DNA from: Candidatus Thermoflexus sinensis
GTDB taxonomy: Bacteria > Chloroflexota > Anaerolineae > Thermoflexales > Thermoflexaceae
Length of the DNA stretch: 36,475 nt
Direction: 5' to 3'
NCBI GenBank assembly: GCA_016842045.1
Contig: JAEVEY010000195.1
Coordinates: 1 to 36,475, forward strand
Shown here: piece after piece, positions 10,490 to 24,404 of the stretch
Numbering within the stretch: the first letter of the stretch is position 1
How the letters are laid out: every line of letters begins with the position of its first letter
Position numbers and translations under genes: made by a program
The notes under the pieces: model-generated
What the model saw: only the letters and a program-made list of their open reading frames with translations
The model's database searches: none
Told to the model about the DNA's origin: nothing

Positions 10490-10498
10490 CCCGGCCTC

Positions 10499-10993
10499 CT
10501 AACCGGAGTAGGCCAGCAGGAGCGTGCCGAAGGTGATCAGAGCAGCCCCTATCCCCAGCCGCATGGTGATCCGTTCGAGTGAGCGCCCGAGGACCAGCGG
10601 GGATAGCATCACCACAAGAGGGACGGATAGCCGTCCCAGGGCCAGCACTACGGCGGCGGGGATCAGCTGGAGGGCCAGCCATTTGATCCACGTGGATAGG
10701 GCCACTAGCAGCCCGGCGAGGATCTGCCACGCCATGATGCGGATAGACGGCGGCGGATCCAATGGGCGCCGGAGCCACAGGAAGAGACCATAGATCCCCA
10801 CACAGGCCGCGAGGCTCAAGACGGCCCCCCATAGCGGCGACGGGAACACGGTCAGCCCCCACCGCACCAGGACTGGATCGATCGCCCAGCAAATCGCAGC
10901 ACCCAGGCCATACCAGATGCCGGGCTCGAGGAATCCGTTTAAAGAATGCGTGTGCTCCGGTTTAATAGATGCGCGCGAGCAGGCTGCTGTCAT
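10499..10993 (-). CDS. Half-size EamA/DMT membrane protein (second of a pair)
   Basis: This 164-residue protein has about five predicted transmembrane segments (near residues 23-48, 52-75, 87-112, 114-136, 142-162). The C-terminal segment GIGAALITFGTLLLAY is typical of an EamA domain. Full-size drug/metabolite transporters carry two EamA domains in about 300 residues; this gene holds one. GGGGAG precedes the ATG at 10993, so it is an independently translated gene. The gene upstream, 136 bases away, encodes the matching half. The two products may assemble as a heterodimer like paired small multidrug resistance proteins. Descent from one split gene is possible. The transported compound is unknown. 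Confidence 0.8.
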   Translation of the reverse strand: MTAACSRASIKPEHTHSLNGFLEPGIWYGLGAAICWAIDPVLVRWGLTVFPSPLWGAVLSLAACVGIYGLFLWLRRPLDPPPSIRIMAWQILAGLLVALSTWIKWLALQLIPAAVVLALGRLSVPLVVMLSPLVLGRSLERITMRLGIGAALITFGTLLLAYSG

Positions 10994-11069
10994 CGATTTC
11001 TCCCCGCCTCAGCCTCATTTTGAGATCCGGAGTGGCATGTGAGTAGCTCCCCTACCCCGCATATGAAGC

Positions 11070-11098
11070 GGGCGAGGCTGCCAGAGGCAGCCCCGCCC
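11070..11098 (-). terminator. Strong stem-loop between the two EamA genes
   Basis: Thirteen-base arms GGGCGAGGCTGCC (11070-11082) and GGCAGCCCCGCCC (11086-11098) pair with a three-base loop and one mismatch or wobble position. No U-tract follows on the minus strand. It lies in the 136-base gap between the paired EamA genes and may attenuate, terminate or protect the transcript. Confidence 0.45.
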
Positions 11099-11129
11099 GC
11101 CCTCGAGAATCCGAAGAGGAGGGGTTTAT

Positions 11130-11549
11130 TCAATCCCTGGAAACCAGATAAACACCTGCGACCACCATCAGCACTCCCAGCAATGCAGGCAAGGGTAGAC
11201 GTTCGCCGATGAGGATCCAGGCAATGACCATGGCGAACAGCGGACTGATGCCCACGAGGGCGCCTGCACGGGCTGCTCCCACTCTTCGCTGGCTGAGCCC
11301 CAGCAGGGTCCATCCGAGGACATAATGTAAGAACCCCGCCAGACTGAAGGCGAGGAGGGCCTGCCCGGACAGCTGGCGCATGGGAGCGAGGCCCTCAGTG
11401 GCCAGGGCCAGGCCGAGCAGGATAAGTGCGCTGACCAGAATTAAAAGAAAAGTAGCGCGAAGCACGTCAATGCCCAGGCCTGCTCGACGGTTTACGACCT
11501 GGAAAAGCGCGAATCCAAGAGCCGAGAGCATCGCCCACAGGATCCCCAA
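11130..11549 (-). CDS. Half-size EamA/DMT membrane protein (first of a pair)
   Basis: This 139-residue protein has about five transmembrane segments (near residues 2-19, 28-50, 60-84, 91-115, 118-137). Its ending, ILIGERLPLPALLGVLMVVAGVYLV, is the classical EamA-domain C-terminus with the GE motif of DMT exporters. It carries a single EamA domain, half of the common ten-helix transporter. It starts 12 bases past the LivM-like gene and precedes the second half-size protein. With five helices each, the pair would give the usual ten. A role in export or uptake of a pathway compound is inference from location. Confidence 0.82.
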   Translation of the reverse strand: MGILWAMLSALGFALFQVVNRRAGLGIDVLRATFLLILVSALILLGLALATEGLAPMRQLSGQALLAFSLAGFLHYVLGWTLLGLSQRRVGAARAGALVGISPLFAMVIAWILIGERLPLPALLGVLMVVAGVYLVSRD

Positions 11550-11561
11550 CTCGTCCCTCCT

Positions 11562-16482: not shown

Positions 16483-17976
16483 CTATCGCCGATTTAGAAC
16501 CATTAACTTTAACTCCGTCATTTCCTGGATGGCGTAGCGCACCCCCTCCCGTCCGAAGCCAGACAGCTTGACACCGCCGTAGGGCATATGATCCACCCGG
16601 AATGTGGGCACATCGTTCACGATCAGGCCGCCGACCTCGATGTGCTCGAATGCCGCTTCGATCAAGCGGAGATCGCTGGTGAAGATCCCAGCCTGCAACC
16701 CATAATCGCTGCGATCGACCGCGCGGATAGCCTCTATCGGATCCGCATAGCGGTAGAGGCCGATCAGAGGCCCGAAGACTTCCTGACAGGAGACTTTCAT
16801 ATCCTCACGGATCGAGGTCAGGATGGTGGGTTCCCACAGGTTTCCGGTCCGCCGTCCTCCGATCAGCACCTTCGCGCCGCCGGCGACGGCCTCCTGAACC
16901 CATGCCTCGATGCGTTCGGCAGCTTCCCGATCGATCACCGGACCGACATCGGTTGTCTCTTCCAGAGGGTCTCCCACGCGGAGGACAGAAACCCGCTGCA
17001 GGAGGCGATCCACAAAGGCTTCATAGATTTCCTCATGGATGTAGACCCGTTGCACGGAGATGCAGGACTGACCAGCATAAGTGAACCCACCCCAGGTCAC
17101 CCGCTCGGCGGCGTAATCCAGATCGGCATCCCGGTGAATAATCACCCCGGCGTTTCCTCCCAGTTCCAGGGTCACCCGCTTCCGGCCGGCACGAGCTTTC
17201 AATCCCCATCCCACCGCTGGGCTGCCGGTGAAGGTCAACATGCGGATCCGATCATCCCGCACCAGGAGCTCCGCATCCTGTGTTGTGCACGGAATCACAG
17301 CGAACCCCTCCGGGGGCCAGCCCGCTTCCAGAACGACCTCACCCAGCTTCAGGGCGCTGATTGGTGTCTTGGTGGAAGGTCGGATCAGAATCGGGTTACC
17401 CGCCGCCAGCGCCGGCGCCACCTTATGGACCACGAGGTTCAGCGGGAAATTGAAGGGTGTGATGCCCAGGATAGGGCCGATAGGAACCCGGCGCACATAT
17501 CCAATGCGCCCCTCCGCCCCAGGGACCCAGTCCAGAGGCACGATCTCGCCGTAGATCCGCTTCGCCTCCTCGGCAGCCACCTTAAAGGTGAAGATCGCCC
17601 GATCCGCCTCCACCCGGGCCGTGCGAATGGGCTTTCCGGCTTCCAGAGCGATGGTTCGGGCAAACTCTTCACGCCGGGCCGCGATCCCCACGCTGATCCG
17701 CTCCAGGATCTCCGCCCGCTTCCAGGAGGGCATCCGCCGCGTGGTCTCAAAAGCCCGGGTGGCAGCGGCCATCGCCGCCTCCAGCTCGTTGGGCCCCGCC
17801 CGATGCACCACAGCCACCGGAGATTCATCGTAGGGGCTTCGCACCTCCACCGCATCTCCAGTGCGGATCCAGCGCCCCGCCACCAGAACTCCGTATTCGC
17901 CCAGAGGAAGTTCTACGGATCGGGCGCCTTCCACCGCCAGCGTCATGGATCCTCGCAACCGCCCCTGATCGCTCAT
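16483..17976 (-). CDS. NAD(P)-dependent aldehyde dehydrogenase
   Basis: This 497-residue ALDH-superfamily enzyme oxidises an aldehyde to the acid or thioester. The catalytic Cys305 lies in AGQSCISVQR, the general base Glu271 in LELGGN and the oxyanion Asn176 in PFNFP. The cofactor loop TFTGSPAVG is intact. The overall sequence resembles the GAPN/lactaldehyde-type branch. The ATG at 17976 follows AGGAGG by six bases and lies 18 bases past the E2 stop. It could oxidise an aldehyde generated by the molybdenum hydroxylase or hydrolase steps; this is inference from context. Confidence 0.93.
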   Translation of the reverse strand: MSDQGRLRGSMTLAVEGARSVELPLGEYGVLVAGRWIRTGDAVEVRSPYDESPVAVVHRAGPNELEAAMAAATRAFETTRRMPSWKRAEILERISVGIAARREEFARTIALEAGKPIRTARVEADRAIFTFKVAAEEAKRIYGEIVPLDWVPGAEGRIGYVRRVPIGPILGITPFNFPLNLVVHKVAPALAAGNPILIRPSTKTPISALKLGEVVLEAGWPPEGFAVIPCTTQDAELLVRDDRIRMLTFTGSPAVGWGLKARAGRKRVTLELGGNAGVIIHRDADLDYAAERVTWGGFTYAGQSCISVQRVYIHEEIYEAFVDRLLQRVSVLRVGDPLEETTDVGPVIDREAAERIEAWVQEAVAGGAKVLIGGRRTGNLWEPTILTSIREDMKVSCQEVFGPLIGLYRYADPIEAIRAVDRSDYGLQAGIFTSDLRLIEAAFEHIEVGGLIVNDVPTFRVDHMPYGGVKLSGFGREGVRYAIQEMTELKLMVLNRR

Positions 17977-17994
17977 TCCGAGCCTCCTGCGCGG

Positions 17995-19272
17995 TTAGTG
18001 AAGAAGTCCTAAGGGCTCTTCAATCAACTCGGCCAGTGTGTCCAGAAATTGTGCCGCCCGCGCTCCATCGACCACCCGGTGATCGCACGCCAGTGTGAGG
18101 GTCAGCATCGGCTGCACCGCGGGTTGCCCATGCATCGGGACGACACGCTCTGCAATTCGTCCCACCGCCAGAATCGCTGCTTGTGGAGGATTGACGACTG
18201 GCATAAAGGCGTCGATGCCATACATCCCCAGATTGCTGATCGTGAAGGTCCCACCCTGCACATCCTCGGGCCGCAGCCGTCCCGCCCGAGCCCGTTCCAC
18301 CAGATCCTGACGTCGGGTTGCGATCTCCTCTAAGGTAAGCCGGTCCGCGTGGTGGATCACCGGCACCACCAGCCCATCCTCGGTCGCCACCGCCAGGCCA
18401 ATGTGGATCTCTTTATGAGTGATGATGGTGCCTTCATGCCACCAGGCATTGATACGCGGATGTTCTCGGAGGGCGGCGGCTACCAGCTTGATCAAAAGAT
18501 CGGTGTAAGTCAGGCGAATGGAACTTCGCTTCTGGGCTCGTTCATGCCAGGTGAGCAGGCGGGCAGCCTGAACCTCCCGCTGCAGGTAAAAATGAGGCGT
18601 TTGGGACCAGCTATGGGTCAGGCGCTCCACCATCGTCCGCCACACGGTGGAAAGTGGTGGAGGGGATGATTCAGCTGCCTGCCGTACGGCGTGGACGGCC
18701 AGTACATCCGCGGCCCGCACAGCCCCTTCCGGGCCGGATCCCTGCACCTGACGCAGGTCGATCCCCAGTTCCTGGGCCAGACGACGGGCTTTCGGCGAGG
18801 CCGGAATCCGTCCTTCAGGATGGGACGGGGACGCCGAGCGCTGGCGCTGTTCCAGATACGCCAGGACATCCTGTTTGCGAACCCAGCCGCCTTCCGGGCG
18901 GATCTCCCGAAGATCAATGCCATGCTCCGCGGCCAGGCGGGCCGCTACAGGTGTCGCCCGAACTTCCGTATCAGCCGCTCCCAAGGAAACGGATCTTTCA
19001 GAGGGTGGAGAACTTTCCGGCTCAGGTGTTGATTCGCCTGGTGCAACAATCCAGGCAATGACTTGGCCGACTGGGGCTTCCTCTCCCTCCCGAAGCCGGA
19101 TCCCCGTGAGGATTCCAGAAGCAGGCGCCTCGATCTCGACCGTCACCTTATCGGTCTCGATCTCCATCAGCGGCTCGCCTGCCTGTACCAGGTCTCCTTC
19201 TCGTTTCAGCCAGCGCACTAACCGACCCGTCCGCTGGGCGGCACCCAGGGCGGGCATGATCACCTCACGCAC
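17995..19272 (-). CDS. Dihydrolipoamide acyltransferase E2 of a 2-oxoacid dehydrogenase complex
   Basis: This is a 425-residue E2. An N-terminal lipoyl domain carries the lipoylated Lys42 in EIETDKVTVE. Two successive peripheral-subunit-binding-like segments follow (about residues 105-140, RATPVAARLAAEHGIDL, and 157-192, PASPKARRLAQELGIDL); most E2 proteins carry one. The C-terminal catalytic domain has the DHRVVDG motif with the catalytic His398. The start is a GTG at 19272 with GGAGG 10 bases upstream, matching the usual start of E2 proteins at xxEVIMPALG. It transfers the acyl group from E1 to CoA. No E3 gene lies in the window. Confidence 0.93.
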   Translation of the reverse strand: MREVIMPALGAAQRTGRLVRWLKREGDLVQAGEPLMEIETDKVTVEIEAPASGILTGIRLREGEEAPVGQVIAWIVAPGESTPEPESSPPSERSVSLGAADTEVRATPVAARLAAEHGIDLREIRPEGGWVRKQDVLAYLEQRQRSASPSHPEGRIPASPKARRLAQELGIDLRQVQGSGPEGAVRAADVLAVHAVRQAAESSPPPLSTVWRTMVERLTHSWSQTPHFYLQREVQAARLLTWHERAQKRSSIRLTYTDLLIKLVAAALREHPRINAWWHEGTIITHKEIHIGLAVATEDGLVVPVIHHADRLTLEEIATRRQDLVERARAGRLRPEDVQGGTFTISNLGMYGIDAFMPVVNPPQAAILAVGRIAERVVPMHGQPAVQPMLTLTLACDHRVVDGARAAQFLDTLAELIEEPLGLLH

Positions 19273-19388
19273 TGGGGCGATTCCTCCTTTCGATCATTCA
19301 CACCATGGGCAATACAGTTGCCTTTGGGTCATGGAATGGGATCAACTACTTTCTATGTCCCAAGGGGCCAGTCCGGTGGAAGGAGAAA
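19273..19388. other. Gap between the interrupted M24 gene and E2
   Basis: This 116-base gap contains the E2 ribosome site. I see no clear promoter, terminator or small gene in it. Confidence 0.3.
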
Positions 19389-20747
19389 TCAGCGCATCGA
19401 CATCCCTTCCCACCGCGCGCTTTCGACCACGGTCTGGACCCGGCTCAAAGCTCCCGGATTGTTGAGGTTTGACTGAGTCTCCCGGATAGCAGAGAGCGGA
19501 CCCGTAGCAGTGTAGTAGCGTGTGCCGGCTACAATGGGCTCTTCCGCCGGGAAGCGGGTGATCACCTCGCAGCCCTCTTTGGTGACCACCACCATCTCCT
19601 CAATGCGAGCCGCGGACCACCCATCTGAAGCTGGCCAGAAAGTTTCGAGGGCGATCACCATGCCCTCTTCAATCACCTCGGGATGATCCAGGGAGACCAG
19701 GCGGCTGAAAATCGGCTTTTCCCAGATCGAAAGTCCCACACCGTGGCCATACTGAAGGGCAAACGCCGCTTCTTCGTTGGGGAAGCCGAACTCCTCCGCC
19801 CTTGGCCAGACCTTCACCACATCCGCCGTGGTCACGCCCGGTCGGATCAGTTCGATGGCCGCATCCAGATAGTCCCGGCATCGCTTGTAGGCATCGATCT
19901 GGGCCTTGGAGGCGCTTCCGACAAAGAAGGTGCGGTAATAGCAGGTGCGGTAGCCGTTATAGCTGTGTAGGATGTCGAAATAGGCGGGGTCGCCCGGCCG
20001 CAGAATGCGATCACTGAAGACGTGGGGATGGGGATTACAACGCTCTCCCGAGATGGCGTTGACGCCTTCCACGTGCTCCGAGCCCAGGTCGTAAAGTACT
20101 TTGGCGACCAGACCGACCAGCTCGTTCTCACGCACCCCCGGCCGCATGGCCCGGTAGAGCTCCTCATAGGCGGCGTCGACCATGGCACAGGCCGTGTTGA
20201 TCAGGATGATCTCGTCCTGTGTCTTGATCTTACGGGCCCCCATCAGCAATTGCTGCCCATCCACCACCTTCAGCCCTTCTTTTTGCAGGGCGAACAGCAC
20301 AGGAGGCTCCACGATGTCCACCCCCAGGGGCTCCCGATGGAGGCCTCGCTCCTCCAGCTCGATGCGGATCTTGCGGGCCACATCCTCCGCCCGCTGGGCA
20401 TCCGGTGGCATCGCACCGCGCAGCGTGGAGATCCCGGCTCGCGAGCGCTCGGGTCCCAGCCAGGGGCAATAGAGCTGATGATGACGGGCTGCCGAACCGA
20501 AATCCCACACAATCGGCTCATCGTCCCGGGGGAGCAGGCAAAAGCGAGCTACCTTGTCCATTGCCCAGGTGCCAATATGGGTGGCACTAAGATAGCGGAT
20601 ATTGGCCATGTCGAAGCACAGCAACGCGCCCAGCTCGGACCGCTGAAGAAGCGTTTGGATCCGATGGAGCCGTTCCCGCCTCAGGCGCTCGAAATCGACA
20701 CGGGCCTACCAATCCACACCCATCGTTCCGAAGGTTTTCAACCCCAT
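19389..20747 (-). CDS. M24 (aminopeptidase P-like) gene with an in-frame TAG at codon 14
   Basis: AAAGGAGG precedes an ATG at 20747, giving MGLKTFGTMGVDW, then TAG (20706-20708), then in the same frame ARVDFERLRRERLHRI and the whole 411-residue remainder. The gene is intact apart from one amber codon, probably GAG to TAG. The family commonly has Glu after this Trp (from memory). Its start lies 16 bases past the E1-beta stop. The M24 domain keeps one Asp (YFDILHS), the His (YGHGVGL) and both Glu (ALETFWP, RIEEMVV); the second Asp is Cys (RTCYYR). It could be a recent pseudogene, a sequencing error, or a gene restarted at TTG 20624 or ATG 20609. Confidence 0.8.
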
Positions 20748-20763
20748 GGCACCCTCCTTTCGT

Positions 20764-21786
20764 TCAGACGCGGCCACACAGGGTTTTCGCCGCTTCCACC
20801 ACCCTCTCCGGGGTGGGAACGGTGAGATCCTCCAGGGGCGGAGAGAACGGAACAGGGACATCCATCGCCCCCAGACGGATCACCGGCGCGTCCAGGTAGT
20901 AAAAGGCACCCTCGGTGATCACAGAGGCCAGCTCGGCTGTCGCCCCATAGCTCTGATGGCCCTCGTCCAGGATGATGACCCGCCCGGTTTTCCTGGCGGA
21001 TTCGATCAACGTCTTCCGATCCAGTGGGACCAGCGTTCGGGGATCTACCACCTCCGCTTCAATACCCAGCTCCGCCAGCCGTTGAGCCGCCTCTATAGCG
21101 ACATGGACCATACGGCCGATGGCCACGATCGTGAGATCCCGACCTTCCCGTTTGATGTCCGCCACGCCGAAGGGGATGGTGTATTCCTCAGCAGGGACAT
21201 ATCCGCGCATGCTATACATCGCTTTGTGCTCGAAGAAGAGGACCGGATTATCGTCCCGGATCGCGGTTTTCAGCAGACCTTTGGCATCATATGGGGTAGA
21301 AGGAATGACCACCTTCAGGCCGGGAATATGGGCGAACCAGGCGTGTAAACTCTGGCTATGCTGAGCCGCTTTCCGCAGCGTGGCACCCATAGTGGCGCGG
21401 ATCACCATGGGGACCTTCCATTTCCCGCCGGACATGTAATGCACTTTGGCAGCCTGATTGACGATCTGATCCATTGCCAGCGTGAGGAAGTCCCCAAACA
21501 TGATGTCCACCACCGGTCGCATTCCGGTCATCGCTGCTCCCACCGCGATGCCGGTGAAGCCAGCTTCTGAAATGGGGGTATCGATCACGCGCTGGGGCCC
21601 GAATTCTTCCACCAACCCTTTCAGAACCTTGAAGGGAGTTCCTGCCTCCGCCACATCCTCGCCCATAATGAATACCCAGGGATCCCGGCGCATTTCCTCG
21701 GCCAGGGCCTCACGGATCGCCTGGGCCATTGAGATCACCCGATCTGTCGTGCTGCTCTCATAGCTGTGCTTCATTGGCGTAGACAT
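20764..21786 (-). CDS. 2-oxoacid dehydrogenase E1 component, beta subunit
   Basis: This is a roughly 340-residue E1-beta of a pyruvate/branched-chain/acetoin-type dehydrogenase. Family hallmarks are FIMGEDVAEAGTPFKVLKGL, VIDTPISEAGFTGIAVGAAMTGMRPV, the FGDFLTLAMDQIVNQAAK helix and the transketolase C-terminal domain (VVDPRTLVPLD, ILDEGHQSYGATAELAS). With E1-alpha it forms the TPP-dependent heterotetramer that decarboxylates the 2-oxoacid. The ATG at 21786 is chosen for a GAGG upstream; ATG 21774 or 21729 are alternatives. It overlaps the end of the E1-alpha gene by 29 bases. Confidence 0.93.
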   Translation of the reverse strand: MSTPMKHSYESSTTDRVISMAQAIREALAEEMRRDPWVFIMGEDVAEAGTPFKVLKGLVEEFGPQRVIDTPISEAGFTGIAVGAAMTGMRPVVDIMFGDFLTLAMDQIVNQAAKVHYMSGGKWKVPMVIRATMGATLRKAAQHSQSLHAWFAHIPGLKVVIPSTPYDAKGLLKTAIRDDNPVLFFEHKAMYSMRGYVPAEEYTIPFGVADIKREGRDLTIVAIGRMVHVAIEAAQRLAELGIEAEVVDPRTLVPLDRKTLIESARKTGRVIILDEGHQSYGATAELASVITEGAFYYLDAPVIRLGAMDVPVPFSPPLEDLTVPTPERVVEAAKTLCGRV

Positions 21787-22786
21787 GCCGCGCCACCTCA
21801 TCCAGATCGGGATAGGGTGCATTCAACGCGAACGCCAGGGCCGCTTCAACCTCCGCGCGGACCTCGCGGTCAATCGCCTCCAGGATCCGTTCATCTGCAA
21901 TGCGTTCCTGGAGCATCCATGAGCCCAGCAATCGAATCGGATCCCGCTCGCTTTTCCACCACTCCTCTTCCTCGCGAGAGCGATAGTAAGAACGATCGAT
22001 ATCTCCCACGTGATGTCCGTAATAACGATAGGTGTTGCAGAGCAGGAAAGCTGGCCCTTCCCCGGCGCGTGCGCGTTCGATCAGACGCTGGGCAACGAAA
22101 TACACCTCTCGCACATCCTGCCCATCCACCGCCTCCGCATGGATCCCAAACGCCCGTGGGCGATCCAGGATCTCTCCAGCCAGGACCTCCTGATAGGGGG
22201 TGTATTCGGTGTAGAGGTTGTTCTCGCAGACATAAATGACGGGGAGCTTCCAGAGAGAGGCCATGTTCATCACTTCGTAGAGCACCCCCTGCCCGAGGGC
22301 GCCCTCCCCAAAGAAGCAGACCACCACCTGGTCGGTCCCCCGCATTTTTGCGGAAAATGCCGCACCGGTGGCGATCCCAACAGCCCCTGCTACGATAGCG
22401 TTGGCTCCCAGATTCCCTGTGTCCGGATCCGCGATGTGCATGGAGCCACCCTTGCCTCGATTATAGCCGGGGGCCTTGCCCAACAATTCGGCAAACATTC
22501 GATCCATAGAGGCGCCCTTTGCCAGACAATGGCCGTGCCCTCGATGGGTGCTGGTAATGTAATCGTCCCGCCGCAACGCCTCGCAGACTCCGACCGCCAC
22601 TGCCTCCTGGCCAATATAGAGGTGGGCCAGGCCTGGCATCTTCGCGCTCACATAGAGCTCATTCACCTGCTCCTCGAAGCGACGGATCCGCAGCATCTGT
22701 CGATACATGTGAAGCCATTGCTCGCCATCGACCGTCAGATAGACAGAACGCTCTGCGCGGATTTTCGGCCCCGAAGATGACATCAT
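21758..22786 (-). CDS. 2-oxoacid dehydrogenase E1 component, alpha subunit
   Basis: This roughly 342-residue E1-alpha has the AHLYIGQEAVAVGV and STHRGHGHCLAKGA motifs. It also has the TPP-binding stretch GEGALGQG through VCENN, with Glu replacing the usual Asp of GDGA. A YRYYGHHVGD phosphorylation-loop-like segment lies near residue 265. The profile resembles the acetoin dehydrogenase/pyruvate dehydrogenase E1-alpha group. The ATG at 22786 has GGGAGGA six bases upstream; the frame extends to a TTG at 22801 that precedes the ribosome site. It starts 22 bases past the reductase gene. Confidence 0.93.
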   Translation of the reverse strand: MMSSSGPKIRAERSVYLTVDGEQWLHMYRQMLRIRRFEEQVNELYVSAKMPGLAHLYIGQEAVAVGVCEALRRDDYITSTHRGHGHCLAKGASMDRMFAELLGKAPGYNRGKGGSMHIADPDTGNLGANAIVAGAVGIATGAAFSAKMRGTDQVVVCFFGEGALGQGVLYEVMNMASLWKLPVIYVCENNLYTEYTPYQEVLAGEILDRPRAFGIHAEAVDGQDVREVYFVAQRLIERARAGEGPAFLLCNTYRYYGHHVGDIDRSYYRSREEEEWWKSERDPIRLLGSWMLQERIADERILEAIDREVRAEVEAALAFALNAPYPDLDEVARHVYANEAQL

Positions 22787-22808
22787 CGACGCTCCTCCCA
22801 ACAGCGGA

Positions 22809-23690
22809 TCAGGCCTCCAGGCCCGACATGCGAGCCAGGACGTGGAAAACGACGGCGAAATCCTGATGAGCCAGCCCCATCCCCCGTGCCGCGGTCAGGA
22901 ACTCGTTGGCCACAGCCGTGGTCGGCAAGGGGACATTCAGGCTGCGCCCCATTTCCAGAGCCAGCAGAAGATCCTTCTGCATCATATTGACGTCAAACCA
23001 GGCTTCCTCCGGCATCCGGAGGACAAAGGGGCCGCGATATTTCAACATGGGGGAAGCGACCACGCTGTTCAGCAGAGCGCGCACGGCGATCTCGCGGGGA
23101 ATACCGCTCTTCTCAGCCAGAAGGACGGCTTCGCTGAAGGCCAGCATCTGAACGGCTAATCCCAGGTTGACAGCAATCTTCATGGCCACCGCCAGCCCAT
23201 TGGGGCCAACATAGGTAACCGTGGGCCCAATGTCCTGGAGAATGGGCAGCACCCGTTCGAAGACCTCTCGATCTCCGCCGACCATGATCGAAAGCTGGCC
23301 AGCCTCCAGGGTGGAGACGCTGCCGGAAACTGGCGCATCTAACATGGCTGCCCCGCGAGCGGCCACCTGAGCCGCCAGCTCCCGGCTGAAGGCCGGGCTG
23401 ACTGTACTCATATCGATATAAACCTTCCCCGGCCCCAAACCGGCCAGGATTCCATCTGGCCCCAGGGCAATAGCTTGCAGGGCCCGGGTGTCTGTAACCA
23501 TAGAGAAAATGATATCCGCCGCTTCGGCCACGGCCCGAGGGCTATCAGCCCATTGCATCCCGGCTTCGATCAGCCAGCGGGCCTTTTCCTTAGTTCGGTT
23601 GTAGCCGGTCACCACGTGGCCGGCGTCCATCAACCGCTTGGCGATCCGGCCACCCATCGTGCCCAATCCGACGAATCCCAGATTGGCCAT
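22809..23690 (-). CDS. NAD(P)-dependent beta-hydroxyacid dehydrogenase (3-hydroxyisobutyrate dehydrogenase-like)
   Basis: This 293-residue reductase has the N-terminal Rossmann motif GFVGLGTMGGRIAKRL. A following YNRT suggests NADP preference, because Arg replaces the acidic residue used by NAD enzymes. The substrate motif DAPVSGS includes Ser122, and the catalytic Lys171 lies in GLAVAMKIAVN. Length is normal for 3-hydroxyisobutyrate, tartronate semialdehyde and glyoxylate reductase relatives. Substrate is unknown. It is the second gene of the leftward run, 12 bases after the GntR gene. Confidence 0.92.
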   Translation of the reverse strand: MANLGFVGLGTMGGRIAKRLMDAGHVVTGYNRTKEKARWLIEAGMQWADSPRAVAEAADIIFSMVTDTRALQAIALGPDGILAGLGPGKVYIDMSTVSPAFSRELAAQVAARGAAMLDAPVSGSVSTLEAGQLSIMVGGDREVFERVLPILQDIGPTVTYVGPNGLAVAMKIAVNLGLAVQMLAFSEAVLLAEKSGIPREIAVRALLNSVVASPMLKYRGPFVLRMPEEAWFDVNMMQKDLLLALEMGRSLNVPLPTTAVANEFLTAARGMGLAHQDFAVVFHVLARMSGLEA

Positions 23691-23702
23691 TCGGACCTCT
23701 CC

Positions 23703-24404
23703 TTAAGGAATTTCACCCAGAATATGCGCGCTGTCCTCCCGGATCTGCTGGAGGTGAGCGATCATAGCCACTCGGGCCGCTTCGGGATCCCGCCGCGTGA
23801 CCGCCTCCAGAATCTGCTTGTGGTAGAACTGGCCCCGTGCTGCTCCACCGACGAGAAATACCTGGATCCGGTGCTCTCGAAGCAGATCAATAATGGGGTC
23901 GATCAAAAGGGGGATCAGTGGGTTCCCAGACCCTTCCGCCAGCGCCAGATGGAAATCCAGGTCTGCCTCTACAAACCGCTCGGGATCATCAAAGGAGGCA
24001 TCCATGATTTCGACCGCGCGACGCATCGCCTCCAGATGCTCCTCGGTGGCCCGTTCAGCCGCCAGGGCCGCGATAGAGGGCTCCAGCAGCTCCCGGACTT
24101 CCATCAGATCGGAGATCCGGCGGGCCTGTTCGCGACGCAGTAGCATACCGAGAGTTTGTCGAACGACCTGATGGACATTGTCCGTTACAAAGGTGCCGCG
24201 CCCAGGATGAACCTCTACTAGGCCTTTTTCCCGCAACGCCTTGATTGCCTCCCGCACCGCCGTGCGGCTCACCCCGAACTGCTCGGCCAGCTCCCGCTCC
24301 GAAGGCAGCTGATCCCCCGGCTTCAGTTCGCCATTGCGGATTCGTGCTTCGATCTGTTCCACGATCTGCTCATAAAGCCTCGCCAGACGCACCGGCGTAT
24401 ACAT
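23703..24404 (-). CDS. GntR-family transcriptional regulator, FadR (FCD) subfamily
   Basis: This 233-residue regulator has an N-terminal winged helix (LPSERELAEQFGVSRTAVREAIKALREKGLVEV) and a C-terminal FCD effector domain. The likely metal or ligand residues of the FCD fold are visible as DLDFH, the YHKQI His and the AHLQQ His. FCD regulators usually bind short organic acids. It heads the leftward catabolic run and its promoter carries a TGGT-N3-ACCA dyad (24485-24507), so autoregulation and control of the whole run are likely. The ATG at 24404 follows a run of seven G residues. Confidence 0.94.
   Translation of the reverse strand: MYTPVRLARLYEQIVEQIEARIRNGELKPGDQLPSERELAEQFGVSRTAVREAIKALREKGLVEVHPGRGTFVTDNVHQVVRQTLGMLLRREQARRISDLMEVRELLEPSIAALAAERATEEHLEAMRRAVEIMDASFDDPERFVEADLDFHLALAEGSGNPLIPLLIDPIIDLLREHRIQVFLVGGAARGQFYHKQILEAVTRRDPEAARVAMIAHLQQIREDSAHILGEIP

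Follow-up and report, generated by a model that had tools for sequence, protein, structure and literature searches.

A TAG at a conserved glutamate codon interrupts an M24-family gene in a draft genome of Candidatus Thermoflexus sinensis

An M24-family gene in a 2-oxoacid dehydrogenase operon

We analysed a stretch of 36,475 nucleotides from Candidatus Thermoflexus sinensis, an uncultured bacterium of hot springs (GenBank assembly GCA_016842045.1, contig JAEVEY010000195.1), called the window throughout. Its minus strand carries, at 16483–24404, an operon in the order GntR, hydroxyisobutyrate-type dehydrogenase, E1-alpha, E1-beta, M24 and E2. The features discussed below are:

20764–21822, minus strand: upstream operon gene, E1-beta of a 2-oxoacid dehydrogenase
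20748–20763, minus strand: intergenic spacer between the E1-beta stop and the M24 ATG, with the Shine-Dalgarno (SD) sequence AAAGGAGGG, which is kept in the sister species
19389–20747, minus strand: M24-family (DddP-like) gene, 452 codons before the final stop, broken at codon 14
20706–20708, minus strand: in-frame TAG, codon 14 of the M24 gene, Glu in all 80 orthologues
20607–20624, minus strand: first possible in-frame starts downstream of the TAG, TTG 20624 (codon 42) and ATG 20609 (codon 47), with no usable SD
17995–19272, minus strand: downstream operon gene, E2 acyltransferase, possibly under polarity

Read on the minus strand, AAAGGAGGGTGCC is followed by the ATG at 20747, the 13 codons MGLKTFGTMGVDW, the TAG (20708–20706) and then ARVDFERLRRERLHRI onwards. 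The initial annotation, made from the sequence alone, had described this arrangement as a strong SD and an ATG 16 bases after the E1-beta stop, thirteen codons, a TAG and 27 further codons in the same frame. Coordinates, spacing and frame all held: the E1-beta stop occupies 20764–20766, 16 bases 5′ of the ATG; the SD duplex energy at that ATG is −12.4 kcal/mol, where the background averages −3.5; and the next in-frame ATG, GTG or TTG, TTG 20624, lies 27 codons downstream of the TAG. Past the TAG the frame continues for 438 more codons, open up to a TGA at 19389–19391, and this post-stop part scores 137.9 bits against Peptidase_M24 (PF00557; gathering score 23).

The operon is kept in whole or in part across genomes of Chloroflexota, Acidobacteria and Deltaproteobacteria (loci L002–L081). 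At about 60 of these 80 loci the M24 gene lies near E1-alpha and E1-beta, mostly directly after E1-beta; an E1-beta match falls within 6 kb in 61 of the 80, and E2 was detected in 53. A literature search on an operon combining M24 and 2-oxoacid dehydrogenase genes returned nothing relevant, and in the literature searched an M24-like protein encoded between E1 and E2 seems to have no described role. We regard this conserved operon, with its M24-like gene between E1-beta and E2, and the M24 subfamily itself as more interesting than the TAG, and the operon as worth study. Of nine genomes of the genus, only three yielded an M24 orthologue, so the gene is accessory there. No second intact copy turned up in the present genome, which holds only distant M24 paralogues. 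Between the M24 stop and E2, the spacer (19273–19388) exceeds that of the sister species by about 70 nt. Elsewhere in the window, an EamA-type transporter (10490–11550, minus strand) apparently consists of two half-length open reading frames (ORFs) in different frames; the split is identical in both sister species and is therefore not an error.

The best match to the M24 protein, in sequence as in fold, is the dimethylsulfoniopropionate (DMSP) lyase DddP (M24B; PDB 4rzy, 4b28 and 4s00), with an E value of 3.4e-25 over nearly the full length and a TM score of 0.67, but identity is only about 24%, and the score against the NCBIfam model for DddP DMSP lyases (NF043017) is 124.7, where the curated cut-off is 600. 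Canonical M24 dinuclear metal sites use the ligands D, D, H, E and E. The full set is not present here: the position of the second Asp ligand in DddP and other M24 proteins is taken in this subfamily by an invariant cysteine, Cys255 (post-stop numbering), in the motif GYRTCYYR. His226 and His228 (PHPH) are likewise invariant in the subfamily. Cys255 and His226/His228 suggest that the metal site is altered or that the protein is not a peptidase.

Codon 14 in orthologues and constraint on the frame

A scan of a collection of species-representative genomes yielded 80 orthologues with 72–96% identity. Codon 14 specifies Glu in every one of them (GAG in 51, GAA in 29). Both sister species, the candidates Thermoflexus tengchongensis and T. 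japonica, use GAG: their GAC TGG GAG GCC CGT corresponds to GAT TGG TAG GCC CGT in the window. The window codon thus differs from the orthologous GAG by one G-to-T change, and the proposal that a glutamate codon had been replaced is borne out. None of the 80 has a TAG at this position or an internal stop in the conserved body, and all are open through codon 14; three apparent stops among them all fall within the variable C-terminal tail. Together with the ORF comparison against a sister genome given below, these orthologues show that the interruption goes beyond chance.

The segment 5′ of the TAG is conserved as well. Orthologues share an in-frame leader with the consensus M-x-x-K-T-x-G-x-M-x-V-D-W-E-x-R-V and, in nearly all cases, the same start; residues G7, D12, W13, E14, R16, R21 and L22 are invariant in an alignment of 19 sequences. 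Because the segment upstream of the TAG is conserved, we take the start at 20747 to be real and the TAG to lie inside true coding sequence. A misplaced start, with the true one downstream of the TAG, was rejected on the same leader and on the retained SD; the initial annotation had reasoned that orthologues starting further downstream without this segment would speak against an interrupted gene, and they do not start there. In a model of the full-length sister protein, residues 1–15 have low confidence, with a short helix at 13–16.

The remainder of the frame is intact. Over 1,372 nt the M24 region aligns to the two sisters gap-free at 87.3% identity; for the gene, dS is 0.73, dN 0.018 and dN/dS 0.024, with zero indels, and 140 of 157 fixed differences are at third positions. 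Neighbouring genes give dN/dS values of 0.025–0.050 in the same sister comparison. Codons 15–415 hold seven fixed amino-acid differences, both lineages summed. The low dN/dS, the lack of indels and these few replacements indicate that the stop is very recent. Taking about 900 non-synonymous sites and about 0.35 dS for the window branch, some 320 changes would be expected had that branch been neutral throughout; by this rough estimate, any constraint-free period of the gene takes up no more than about 4% of the branch leading from the sister-species split to the window. Two earlier claims, that the frame shows no decay and that the change is very recent, are upheld, the second within this rough bound. 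The observed constraint predates the TAG and is no proof that the stop is tolerated.

Explanations for the stop codon

Four explanations had been offered for the TAG: a very recent nonsense mutation, a sequencing or assembly error, natural readthrough and an internal restart. The first two stand, whereas the release factor, tRNA, PylS and SD data lend no positive support to the others. The probable reading, in our view, is that a nonsense allele arose very recently and the M24 protein was lost; its main rival is a single-base consensus error. A single G-to-T substitution would have turned the Glu14 codon GAG into TAG in this genome or population. RF1 would then end translation after 13 residues, making the allele null or nearly null; ordinary near-cognate misreading might leak a trace of full-length protein, and mild polarity on the downstream E2 gene is conceivable. 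With the gene accessory in the genus, its loss may be tolerable, at least for a time. We infer from a single draft genome of 212 contigs that the organism itself carries the T and makes no functional M24 protein.

Such an allele has precedents. Belinky et al. (2021, PMC7918605) described bacterial in-frame nonsense alleles, or incipient pseudogenes, which likewise combine a single in-frame stop of single-substitution origin with a constrained gene and a short life. Their set comprised stops common to at least two species, limiting artefacts, whereas the M24 TAG comes from one draft genome. Since bacteria are already known to carry short-lived in-frame stops in constrained genes (PMC7918605), the finding is ordinary. 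A lone nonsense allele carries little weight; automatic annotation would split the M24 gene or start it at a false TTG. The TAG allele does suggest that the accessory M24 gene can be lost.

If instead the organism has GAG and the T is a sequencing, library or consensus error, one base accounts for everything, and the rest of the gene is pristine. The assembly is a draft in 212 contigs, and G-to-T is the change typical of oxidative library damage. On the other hand, consensus base errors are rare in short-read assemblies of normal depth, and we saw no sign of a generally poor assembly with many stops. When the ORFs of a sister genome (G008) were compared with 256 kb of this genome, made up of the window and eleven stretches of 20 kb, no conserved body among 71 matched ORFs (79 kb) contained a stop other than the M24 TAG, so the assembly is not generally error-prone. 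This comparison speaks against a bad assembly overall and is still compatible with a single wrong base; we consider such an error possible, and less plausible than the nonsense allele. Other apparent stops proved not to be nonsense codons in conserved bodies: a multi-stop match (L152) was non-coding sequence upstream of a start, a further stop lay five codons from the end of its match, at the extreme C-terminus, and one in E1-beta of a sister (L002) reflected an over-extended start. A synteny search with locus L155 gave little overlap.

Natural readthrough, with decoding of the TAG frequent enough to maintain the enzyme, if perhaps at a lower level, would fit the strong constraint downstream of the TAG, and bacteria have been proposed to harbour in-frame stops that tolerate readthrough (PMC7918605). 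That constraint, however, is older than the TAG and is no evidence for the period after the change, and a readthrough stop shared with relatives is not seen at this position in any orthologue. The decoding machinery also argues against it. RF1 is intact (539 bits; cut-off 423); no CUA anticodon occurs among 50 tRNA genes typed with ARAGORN, in a genome 94.5% complete and so possibly missing a tRNA; and the sole match resembling PylS in that same 94.5% scored 27.8 bits, far under the cut-off of 178. The 28 gene stops in the window comprise 14 TGA, 9 TAA and 5 TAG. Genome-wide recoding of UAG was rejected on these grounds, UAG being in use as a terminator. We judge readthrough improbable. The recent age also fits an allele still working through low readthrough; a leaky TAG, regulated or tolerated, through which the population keeps making a little full-length M24 protein, and which would give a thermophilic Chloroflexota bacterium a nonsense allele buffered by readthrough, strikes us as more improbable still.

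An internal restart past the TAG, giving a shortened functional protein, is unlikely and the explanation to which we give least credence: the 13-codon ORF with its strong SD could load ribosomes able to restart, and TTG 20624 and ATG 20609 are in frame, but their SD duplex energies (−4.0 and +0.9 kcal/mol) fall short of the −8 to −13 of most real starts and provide no positive evidence for initiation. Judged by a structure model of the post-stop frame, whose pLDDT averages 72.8 and exceeds 90 at residues 11–30, a restart product would lack helix 5–22 and part or all of strand 27–30, the first of the N-terminal domain, and with them residues invariant in relatives (R21, L22, R23, R26, L27, L34 and G40 lie in the part lost).

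The tRNA survey gave two further observations. A tRNA-SeC gene (contig C44 of this genome, G000, 16493–16584; locus L134) reads UGA, not UAG, and the organism probably makes selenoproteins. Two contigs carry, near their ends, a tRNA-Thr/tRNA-Tyr/tRNA-Thr cluster with differing spacers (C113, 22629–23040, and C193, 61305–61624; loci L091 and L092), which points either to a real duplication or to strain mixture in the draft genome.
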